A program made the translations under genes and the position numbers. The notes beneath the pieces were generated by a model. It made no database searches. It was not told where the DNA came from and worked only from the letters and a program-made list of their open reading frames with translations. Shown here piece by piece: positions 502-44,345 of a stretch of 64,000 nucleotides of DNA (the first letter of the stretch is position 1; each line of letters begins with the position of its first letter). The DNA lies in assembly GCF_001695855.1 (NCBI RefSeq), contig NZ_MBSS01000067.1, positions 62,001 to 126,000 on the forward strand. Reading direction: 5' to 3'. This DNA is from Ensifer sp. LC163 (GTDB taxonomy: Bacteria > Pseudomonadota > Alphaproteobacteria > Rhizobiales > Rhizobiaceae).

Positions 502-1755
502 ATGGGAAAACGATCCACGATCAACCGGTCCTTCATGGCGATGCTGAAGGATCGTGGCGGCAATTTCGGCATGATGGCGGCCTTGGTAATGCCATTGGTC
601 CTTGCCGCCGGTGGCGTTGCCATCGACATGGCCAAGATGGTGACCACCAAGAATCAGATGCAGGACGCGGCCGACGCGGCAGCACTTGCGGCGGCTTCCG
701 CCTTGGTATCGAAGGAGAAGCCCGATATCGCAAAGGCAAAGGAAATTGCGACCAACTTCCTGAAGGCCCAAACCGCCGGCGGCAATAGCGTCGACCTTCC
801 GGCCAACGACGATGGCGCAACGGTCAGCGGCTTTGCCGCATCGGCCAATGCGGCTCCGATTGAAGAACTGGAAGTCAATTCCTCGACAGTCGACATCATC
901 GAGAGTGCCAACGGTGCAACCGGCAAGGCCTTCAAGGTGACGGTCGCCAACAAGCAGACCCTTCAGTTCAATGCGATGACACGCCTCCTTGGGCAGAAAT
1001 CGATACTGATCGAGACCCGCGCCACGGCGGAAAGCGCCACAGAAACCAAGAATGCGCTGTCGATGTATCTCGTGCTCGATCGCTCCGGCTCGATGGCCTG
1101 GAAGAGCAATACGCAGAACACAGCCAAAAGCTCGTGCCCCAACTATACCGAATCAAACTGGGGCAAGTACCCCAATCTGGCAGCGACCAGTCCTTGCTAC
1201 GTGACGAAGATCGACGCGCTCAAGACCGCGGTCAAGGATCTGCTCGCGCAGTTGAAAGCTGCCGACCCGAAGGAACTCTATGTCCGCACGGCAGCCGTTT
1301 CCTATAACTCGGCGCAGGATACCGCCGGCAATATCGCATGGGGGACTGCCGGAACTGGAACCTACGTCAACGCCCTCGTCGCGACGGGCGGCACGGCATC
1401 CGGTAATGCGTTCAAGACCGCCTACAGCCGGGTAACGGCCACCACCGAGGACACGGCGCACAAGACCAAGAATGGTCAGGTTGCGACGAAGTACATCGTC
1501 TTCATGACCGACGGCGCCAACAACAACACGAGCGATGACACAACGACGCTGCAATGGTGCGATACGGCGCGCAAGAACAACGTTCAGGTCTATACCGTGG
1601 CCTTCATGGCACCCGATCGCGGAAAGGCATTGCTCAAGTCCTGCGCGACCACGGTAGCAAACTACTTCCAGGCGGAAGAAGCAGCCGACCTGATTGCAGC
1701 CTTCAAGGCGATCGGCGAGAAGGCTTCGGCCATGGCGACCCGCCTGACAAAGTAA
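502..1755 (+). CDS. TadG-like pilus assembly protein with VWA domain
   Basis: About 417 residues. I start at the ATG of MGKRSTINRS rather than further upstream, because the TadE/TadG N-terminal signature follows directly: a short basic stretch, RGGNFGMMA, one hydrophobic segment (about residues 20-42), then DMAKMVTTKNQMQDAADAAA. The C-terminal half is a von Willebrand A domain with the metal-site motif LVLDRSGSM near residue 190 and a later FMTDGANNN strand. Members of this family are inner-membrane-anchored proteins exposed to the periplasm, linked to Flp/Tad pilus assembly or to general surface functions. No other tad gene is nearby, so this is an orphan and a pilus role is only inferred from the family. 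A strong terminator follows. Confidence 0.85.
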   Translation: MGKRSTINRSFMAMLKDRGGNFGMMAALVMPLVLAAGGVAIDMAKMVTTKNQMQDAADAAALAAASALVSKEKPDIAKAKEIATNFLKAQTAGGNSVDLPANDDGATVSGFAASANAAPIEELEVNSSTVDIIESANGATGKAFKVTVANKQTLQFNAMTRLLGQKSILIETRATAESATETKNALSMYLVLDRSGSMAWKSNTQNTAKSSCPNYTESNWGKYPNLAATSPCYVTKIDALKTAVKDLLAQLKAADPKELYVRTAAVSYNSAQDTAGNIAWGTAGTGTYVNALVATGGTASGNAFKTAYSRVTATTEDTAHKTKNGQVATKYIVFMTDGANNNTSDDTTTLQWCDTARKNNVQVYTVAFMAPDRGKALLKSCATTVANYFQAEEAADLIAAFKAIGEKASAMATRLTK

Positions 1756-37494: not shown

Positions 37495-38586
37495 TCAGCC
37501 CCGTCCTGCCGCCAGCAGGTTAAGCAGAACGACCGCACTTGCGTTCCATGAGAACCGCTCGGCATTCTCGTGCCCGGTGCGCACAAGCTGCCGCCGAAGG
37601 GCAGCATCGGCGGATATGTGCCGCATGACCTCGATCAGAGTTTCCACCTTCGTCGGATCGAAATAGAGAGCCGCCTCGCCGCAGGCCTCCCTGACCGGCG
37701 GGATGTCGGCAGCGAGTACCGGACACCCTTGCGTCATCGCCTCGAGCGGCGGGATGCCGAACCCTTCGTAGAGACTCGGGAACAAGAAGGCCGTGGCGTG
37801 GCGCTGAAGCCCGGCGATCTCCGCGTCGGTGAGGCGCCCGGGAAAGATCAGGTTGCCGCGCGACGTCGGAGCGATGTCGCGAAAAACGCTGGGATCCGTA
37901 CCGCCAACGACGACGAGCTTGCTGCCGGTTGCGCCCAGGGCCTCGAAGGCACGCACCGCGAATTCGACGTTCTTGTTCGGCTTCAAGGTGCCGACGAGAA
38001 GGGAGAAGGGCGTATCGGCAAGGCCAAGCTTCGCAACGATTTCCCGATCCGGCTGCAGGTCCGAAAAATGGTCGGTGGCATTGTAGATCACGTCGATGCC
38101 CGTAGCCGGGACGCGAAAAATGTCTGCCAGCTCGCCACGAGAAAAGTACGAAACGGTGCCGATCTTCGCACGCCGCGTCAGGATGTAGCCGAGCGCGCCA
38201 TGGAACAGACGGTAGCCGCGACCGAAGGATGCCGGATGACGAAAGAGCGTGACGTCATGGATCACCACCACCTGGTCGGAGTGCAGCACCGGTCCGCTGC
38301 CGCCAAGGCCGATCAGCGTGTCACGACGCGCTCGCCAACAGAGTGGCCCCTGCTCCCAGAGATGGCCCGGTCCCGAACCGAAGCGCTCGATCGATATCGC
38401 CGATAGCTGAAGATCATCCGGTGTCGACGCCGGAGCCAGCAACCGCCAGCGCACATCTTTCAACGCTGCCGGCACATCGCCTGCGGCAATGCGGGCATCG
38501 AGCGCGCGGGTGATTTCGCGGGCAAAGCGCTGCACGCCGGTGAGCGGTTGGGTCAGAAACCGGCCGTTGATGGAAATCGTCTTCAC
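37495..38586 (-). CDS. glycosyltransferase family 4
   Basis: 363 residues from a GTG at 38586 (KTISINGRFLTQPLTGVQRFA); AAGGG lies about ten bases upstream. The GT-B C-terminal domain contains LLVGTLKPNKNVEFAVRAF and the nucleotide-sugar motif PSLYEGFGIPPLEAMTQGCPV with the E-x7-E pair. It resembles mannosyl/fucosyl transferases of exopolysaccharide loci. With the flippase and GT2 it forms a compact surface-glycan module, although there is no polymerase or priming transferase in sight. Confidence 0.9.
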   Translation of the reverse strand: MKTISINGRFLTQPLTGVQRFAREITRALDARIAAGDVPAALKDVRWRLLAPASTPDDLQLSAISIERFGSGPGHLWEQGPLCWRARRDTLIGLGGSGPVLHSDQVVVIHDVTLFRHPASFGRGYRLFHGALGYILTRRAKIGTVSYFSRGELADIFRVPATGIDVIYNATDHFSDLQPDREIVAKLGLADTPFSLLVGTLKPNKNVEFAVRAFEALGATGSKLVVVGGTDPSVFRDIAPTSRGNLIFPGRLTDAEIAGLQRHATAFLFPSLYEGFGIPPLEAMTQGCPVLAADIPPVREACGEAALYFDPTKVETLIEVMRHISADAALRRQLVRTGHENAERFSWNASAVVLLNLLAAGRG

Positions 38587-43634: not shown

Positions 43635-43727
43635 GCGATGCCAGGCAAGACAAGGGAGAAAACATGATCGGATATACGATGGTCGGAACGACCGACCTCA
43701 AGCGGGCCGAACGGTTCTACGATCCGC

Positions 43728-43833
43728 TACTGCATAATTCCTTAAATCGGATCCGATTTAAGGAGAAAATTATGCAGCAGGTTTAAAGCGTTACAGCGTC
43801 CTTTGCGCGTCATATTTGACGCGCGGCGCTGTA
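43728..43833 (+). repeat. RIME-like element inserted in the VOC gene (first)
   Basis: Full copy with both palindromes. It is flanked by TA at 43728-43729 and 43832-43833, and the gene reads straight across if one TA and the element are removed. Confidence 0.88.
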
Positions 43834-44142
43834 ATGGCGCTGATCGGCCAGGAACGCTGCTGGTGCGACGAACAGGTGGCATCCTGGGGACGCAGGGATG
43901 ACGACCGCGCGCCGCGCTTCTTCACCGGCTATCCCTTCGACGGAAATCCCGCCGGCATCGGCAATGGCGCCATGACCGCCTTCCTCGCACCAAGCGCTGC
44001 GGTCATCGACCGGCTGTTTGCAACGGCATTGGAACAAGGCGGCAGCGTCGAGGGCGAGCCGGGCTTCCGCCCGCAGTATGGCGAGGGTTTCTACGCCGCC
44101 TATGTGCGCGACCCCGACGGCAACAAGCTTGCCTTCGTCTGC

Positions 44143-44247
44143 TACTGCATAATTCCTTAAATCGGAATCGATTTAAGGACAAAATTATGCAGCAACTCAA
44201 AGTGTTACAGCGACCTTTGCGCGTCTAAATAGACGCGCGGCGCTGTA
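44143..44247 (+). repeat. RIME-like element inserted in the VOC gene (second)
   Basis: TA-CTGCATAATT...GCGCTG-TA. Module B carries GCGCGTCTA/TAGACGCGC, a paired variant. It sits near the 3' end of the broken VOC gene, replacing the natural end with YCIIP-stop read from the repeat. Confidence 0.87.
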
Positions 44248-44345
44248 TGACGCGCGGCCGTCTGCCGCGGAGATGTGATCTCAAGAGCATGGGGCATTAT
44301 GCCCTGCTCCCCCACCTATTGAACGAGACAGGCGGGGGAGCAGCG

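Follow-up and report, generated by a model that had tools for sequence, protein, structure and literature searches.

A short TA-ended hairpin repeat of Ensifer that interrupts one VOC gene twice and whose empty sites are often not TA

Introduction

Short rhizobial repeats called Rhizobium-specific intergenic mosaic elements (RIME) were reportedly described by Osteras in 1995, and we take the element studied here to be RIME-like. In the accessible parts of two papers that mention it, RIME is a short, palindromic, high-copy repeat of Rhizobiaceae that is mostly intergenic (PMC2245857; PMC2573895). Our element is likewise a short palindromic high-copy repeat of Rhizobiaceae, a likeness at the level of description, but two of its copies lie inside a gene and its family is mobile.

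The closest described group is that of the CcrM-associated intergenic repeats (CIR) of Caulobacter and Brucella. In the available text of a review (PMC2229807) they consist of two hairpin arms with a linker between them, end in TA on both sides and lack a terminal inverted repeat; their target duplication is listed there as unknown. The same plan is found here, with two independent hairpins and a linker, terminal TA and no long terminal inverted repeat. GANTC stands in the terminal loop of CIR according to that text, and in our family it is present in part of the copies (somewhere in the element in 49 of 91 copies from the genome of the window, G000, and 17 of 51 from E. adhaerens SD006, G013). 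This likeness to CIR too is one of description, and the empty sites of our element are often non-TA. The ERIC, RUP and Correia/NEMIS-type MITEs resemble it in being ~100 bp, non-coding, TA-ended and able to insert into genes, but the accessible review text lists them with terminal inverted repeats and target-site duplication (PMC2229807), whereas terminal repeats are minimal in our element and dinucleotide duplication fails at 28 of 42 sites.

For Sleeping Beauty, the part of PMC5801840 available to us gives next-best targets one change away from TA, CA and TG above all, with non-TA sites making up ~1.4% of insertions and the recovered ones carrying perfect non-TA duplications; a DDE transposase with target duplication, such as this one, copies the dinucleotide to both sides (PMC5801840). 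The preference for targets one change from TA is shared by our element, but most of its filled copies read TA..TA at non-TA targets. The nearest mechanistic analogies, though not proposed relatives, are IS607-type serine transposases, in which a circle joint with a fixed GG meets a matching target (PMC4058570), and piggyBac, in which a carried TTAA overhang meets a matching target (PMC7351741). In both a short fixed core or overhang is carried by the element; in the accessible text of these two papers neither is described with a TA core.

The interrupted VOC gene

The window is a 64,000-nucleotide stretch of contig NZ_MBSS01000067.1 of Ensifer sp. LC163. The original prediction placed two RIME-like elements in one VOC gene of this stretch, each between TA dinucleotides, and the sequence upholds the coordinates (Table 1). 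As the gene stands in the window, its frame runs into a stop within copy 1 after 40 codons. Removal of the elements had been said to restore the frame, and fusing the flanks of both copies in silico does give a 135-codon ORF; the downstream gene part alone matches Pfam Glyoxalase (PF00903, E 4.3e-05), and the 22-aa upstream part alone has no Pfam match. Uninterrupted orthologues, which the prediction had proposed to look for in relatives, are indeed present: among 15 other genomes of the genus, 13 have a gene that runs unbroken through the two insertion points, the exceptions being G004, where it is frameshifted, and G012, which has no close match. The fused frame differs from its nearest orthologue (L061 of E. 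adhaerens SD006) by 13 synonymous and 2 nonsynonymous codons, so few that the frame has not decayed beyond the two insertions. Judged from its sequence, the gene was intact until recently.

In E. adhaerens Lc04 (L046/L120) the VOC orthologue is split by a frameshift and holds no element, which suggests that more than one lineage can do without the gene.

Table 1. Coordinates of the VOC gene parts, element copies, hairpins and host repeat (positions in the window unless loci are named)
Feature	Position	Strand	Basis
Codons 1-22 of the interrupted VOC (glyoxalase-like) gene, with the left TA of copy 1 (43728-43729) at the end	43664..43729	+	sequence, orthologues
Element copy 1 (interior 43730-43831) with its right TA (43832-43833), in codon 22	43730..43833	+	sequence; empty site TG in G013, G014, G003 and G006
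VOC gene, middle part, ending with the left TA of copy 2 (44143-44144)	43834..44144	+	sequence, orthologues
Element copy 2 (interior 44145-44245) with its right TA (44246-44247)	44145..44247	+	sequence; single-TA empty site in G013, G014, G003 and G006
VOC gene, last part and stop codon	44248..44278	+	sequence, orthologues
Hairpin A of copy 1, starting one base past the left TA	43730..43777	+	DNA fold
Hairpin B of copy 1; the right TA is its last two bases, paired with an internal TA	43792..43833	+	DNA fold
Hairpin A of copy 2; GANTC site in loop GGAATC	44145..44192	+	DNA fold and sequence
Hairpin B of copy 2; the right TA forms its foot	44206..44247	+	DNA fold
Larger host repeat with the element	L318-L321, L325-L328, L331 (G013 loci), element at ~1501-1605		

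Structure of the element

The element is ~103-104 bp long, non-coding and RIME/CIR-like in its two-hairpin build, and the two copies in the VOC gene agree at 93% in one half (57 nt) and at 88% in the other (49 nt). DNA folding gives two separate hairpins per copy (z -10.0 and -9.5 relative to shuffles), with the left TA outside hairpin A and the right TA base-paired at the foot of hairpin B. The ends (TACTGCATAATT and GGCGCTGTA) have only TAC(T/A)GC in common, and a long terminal inverted repeat is absent, in agreement with the earlier remark that terminal inverted repeats are not obvious. Across copies, copy 2 (44145-44192) among them, hairpin A has as its loop either GGAATC, which is a GANTC site, or GGATCC. 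The Rfam search gave sub-threshold matches to a Brucella sRNA only (BASRCI27, RF02600; 28.0 and 27.2 bits, E 0.00099 and 0.0016, against a gathering score of 59.8), and this assignment was rejected.

Abundance and mobility of the family

At least 40 places in G000 match copy 1 at 94-100% identity over 101-105 bp; these are the 40 that were scored among 378 first-look candidates, and all 40 carry the element, which bears out the view that its double occurrence in one gene is more than chance. Matches to the end motif with at most 2 mismatches number 258 in G000, 84 in G013, 44 in E. canadensis T173 (G014; NZ_CP083371.1) and 3-21 in 13 other genomes, figures that are not copy counts since one copy may match on both arms. 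Related copies occur in 344 plasmid records, nearly all of Rhizobiaceae.

After deduplication there are 42 cases in which the element is present in one of the sister genomes G000 and G013 and the clean homologous site is empty in the other. Together with a VOC gene that is intact elsewhere, they agree with the suggestion that the element transposes or recently did, and these genome comparisons show a family that moves within the E. adhaerens clade. Megaplasmids of S. fredii, examined for within-species polymorphism, hold 39-49 places each, and 20 chosen stretches of them contained no clean insertion polymorphism, the copies being shared, decayed or rearranged; judged from those stretches, the family looks inactive there.

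No autonomous parent with both ends was found in 1.00 Mb of G000, 0.79 Mb of G013 and the 3-kb loci. The sole pair of left and right ends in the searched sequence of G000 and G013 lies 86 bp apart, and one candidate parent, a left end followed after 677 bp by a motif like the right end, turned out to be a truncated copy. Nine G013 copies of a larger TA-ended palindromic repeat (ends TATACCAACCTGCG..CGCAGGTTGGTATA) have the element inside, so it also spreads as a passenger; copies of the same host repeat that lack the element are present in G000, G003 and G013. A second TA-ended repeat of ~104 bp (start TAGAGCGTTTCC, end GAAACGCTCTA; 1399-1502 of L017) adjoins the element and has many copies in G013 and G014.

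Target motif

Flanks were scored on 96 unique full-length copies with a score of at least 90. A pyrimidine precedes the left dinucleotide in 91 of the 96, and as many have a purine after the right TA. TA itself stands on the right in 92 copies and on the left in 74 (p 2e-4). At empty sites TA is ~51-fold enriched over the Y-NN-R background, taken from G000 sequence with elements unmasked. The target, as it reads from flanks and empty sites, is Y-NN-R, with TA strongly preferred and not required.

Some copies lie within the loop of an older hairpin, for example a terminator (L335/L355, L324 and C12b:95459 of G000). Stems of at least 8 span the insertion site in 3 of the 96 copies against 0.2 expected from shuffling; a preference for hairpin loops was set aside, three copies being too few.

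Empty sites in sister genomes

Empty sites were compared between two sister species of ~94.5% identity, for copies from five 200-kb blocks of G000 and five stretches of G013 (0.79 Mb) and for the best-scoring 30 copies of each genome, which is not a random sample. Dropped before the count were 56 incomplete copies, 17 duplicates, 79 copies for which no homologous alignment spanned the site, 14 gapped at the junction and 4 with poor flanks; 48 were left, and 42 once the nine-copy host repeat was counted once (27 sites for G000 copies and 15 for G013 copies). TA is present at 14 of these 42 clean sites and absent from 28 (TG 9, CA 7, GA 6, AA 2, and TC, TT, CC and CG 1 each).

The 31 copies with TA on both sides have a TA empty site in 12 cases and a non-TA one in 19, and their mismatches are concentrated on the dinucleotide, 11 and 9 at its two positions against 0-5 at each of 22 flanking positions (p 3e-8). 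The 23 youngest-looking copies follow the same pattern, with 8 TA. By comparison, the sister genome had kept TA at 350 of 467 YTAR control sites outside elements that passed the same flank filter (p 4e-5), and at 42 of 53 lying within 400 bp of elements (p 3e-4), these Fisher p values for element against control sites ranging from 4e-5 to 3e-4. With perfect 8+8 flanks, TA is found at 3 of 9 element sites and at 213 of 253 controls (p 1e-3). Unrecognised site heterogeneity could narrow the gap between the roughly one quarter of non-TA sites expected from TA targeting plus mutation and the observed 19 of 31.

Eight clean copies are asymmetric, with a non-TA dinucleotide on the left and TA on the right. 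In four of them the left one matches the empty site (GA, CA or TG; L324, L330, C67:88218 and G013 C8:62553), and in the other four it does not. In copies whose right dinucleotide is non-TA it equals the empty site in 0 of 2.

Relatives and outgroups at single sites

The original prediction expected a single TA at both VOC sites. At site 2 this is what is seen, in all 12 named relatives whose alignment reaches the site (4 of the 16 are not reached); at site 1 the empty state is instead TG in 15 of 16 named relatives, where it forms part of a CTG, TTG or GTG codon, and TA solely in L065. Empty sites without a single TA had been named beforehand as the outcome that would refute a simple 2-bp TA target duplication of the mariner/IS630 kind, and VOC site 1 and the 28 non-TA sites among the 42 are of exactly that sort. 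A TA duplicated from the target, as in IS630/Tc1-mariner-type MITEs, is not supported for the family (14 of 42 sites, against 350 of 467 controls).

Other loci can be read in several genomes. The empty state is GA in two genomes at C67:35283, TC in two at L004, CA in three at L025, and CA in two and TG in a third at L337. It is GA in three genomes at L330 and CA in three at C67:88218, the filled copies keeping GA and CA, respectively, on the left, and the G014 insertion at 37669 of its block has empty CA in three genomes. The nine element-bearing copies of the larger host repeat in G013 have TA on both sides, and the element-free repeat has CA in G000, G003 and G013 (L320), or CG in G013. Two sites (L027 and C1:47505) are TA in the sister genome yet CA in G014, which counts against a non-TA ancestor supported by outgroups. 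At 9 of 13 sites that could be polarised, both comparators lack TA, compared with 30 of 120 controls (p 0.002), a count made by hand that takes in gapped alignments (L022, L338 and C67:101960) and the diverged L030.

The locus L339 (G013 C1:240797; L357 in G000) is filled in G013 and G014, degenerate in G003, and empty with CA in G000, a distribution that needs loss or recombination, not insertion. It is a candidate for precise loss or allele replacement in G000.

Possible mode of insertion

For the observed presence/absence polymorphism, Y-NN-R target, TA on either side of most copies, empty-site statistics, greater constancy of the right TA and hairpins, we lean, at little better than even confidence, toward an element that brings its own TA as a two-nucleotide core and exchanges it with a TA-like Y-NN-R target, so that the junctions mostly become TA. 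A short non-autonomous mobile DNA of two hairpins would insert at TA, or at a dinucleotide one base away from TA, that has a pyrimidine before it and a purine after it. It would carry TA as a two-base cohesive core, perhaps at the joint of a circular form or as a 2-nt overhang, and during strand exchange this core would pair with the dinucleotide of the target, one mismatch being tolerated, with a putative recombinase acting in trans. Mismatched junctions, which would be heteroduplex, would then become TA in nearly every case on the right and in most cases on the left. The target dinucleotide would in this way be overwritten and not duplicated.

Filled copies read TA..TA where the ancestor was non-TA, and structurally the right TA belongs to the element; a carried two-base core is the simplest account. 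Several observations count for overwriting: outgroups agree on a non-TA ancestor (VOC site 1, L004, L025 and L337); the host repeat is TA/TA when filled and CA or CG when element-free; the right TA is nearly constant and base-paired, whereas the left TA varies and lies outside hairpin A; and half of the asymmetric copies (4 of 8) keep the empty-site dinucleotide on the left. Others count against it, namely the remaining 4 of 8 left mismatches together with the 0 of 2 right matches, the pattern at L339, and the non-TA states (mainly TG, CA and GA), which resemble the divergence spectrum of ordinary TA sites, as strict targeting of TA followed by mutation would also yield. So does the insertion common to L335 and L355, whose left dinucleotide is TA in L335 and CA in L355 and must therefore also mutate after insertion.

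Strict TA duplication combined with mutation in the lineages is disfavoured relative to overwriting. Here an IS630/Tc1-mariner-type transposase would act in trans and duplicate TA, with non-TA empty sites arising by mutation of the site to TA ahead of insertion in one lineage, or away from TA in the other. The marked enrichment of TA among empty sites over the Y-NN-R background, the single TA at VOC site 2 and at 14 of 42 clean sites, and the one quarter or so of control YTAR sites that differ between the genomes, with a similar spectrum, all suit it, and other TA-ended bacterial short repeats are ascribed to IS630-like enzymes in the accessible text of PMC2229807. Nevertheless, we regard it as rather unlikely, given a non-TA empty site for 19 of the 31 copies with TA on both sides, when 117 of 467 controls are non-TA, the agreement of several relatives on non-TA states, the excess at polarised sites (9 of 13 against 30 of 120, p 0.002) and the left/right asymmetry of TA.

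Another alternative is single-strand insertion of the IS200/IS605 or REP type, by which the element would be CTGC..GTA, joined after the target dinucleotide without duplication, and the left TA would be merely the preferred target. The right TA does belong to hairpin B, and the fit is exact in the four asymmetric clean copies of eight whose left dinucleotide is that of the empty site (L324, L330, C67:88218 and G013 C8:62553); but the 19 of 31 copies with a left TA and a non-TA empty site would go unexplained, and a purine after the dinucleotide in 91 of 96 copies bespeaks a symmetric target, so that this route strikes us as improbable. It seems more improbable still that many "empty" sites are excision scars or were replaced by recombination, in which case their dinucleotide would say nothing about the target. 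L339, with copies in three genomes and an empty CA site in G000, could be such a case, but 15 of 16 named relatives carry an intact VOC gene and share its codon pattern, the empty states of L025, L337 and L004 agree in two or three genomes, and the host-repeat consensus is common to different species.

If overwriting is what occurs, this may be a bacterial short element with non-duplicative two-base exchange, one that carries TA, takes YNNR targets one mismatch away and converts them to TA; we put this forward tentatively, as a possibility that we would not yet count on. Dinucleotide overwriting by RIME, CIR or Bru-RS is not described in the accessible text of the literature searched, outside which lie most subscription papers, the RIME paper included, and this negative is weak evidence of novelty.

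Significance

Alphaproteobacterial genomes are full of short hairpin repeats with hundreds of copies, and here a rhizobial intergenic repeat disrupts one gene twice. Dozens of recent insertions in this clade have clean empty sites, so that the choice of target and the formation of junctions can be put to the test. If the TA is imposed by the element, such ends would say little in favour of IS630-type enzymes, and recombinases with a two-base core should be among the candidates when a partner enzyme is sought. Were this general, in other bacterial MITE-like repeats too the terminal TA may belong to the element and not be a scar of target duplication.
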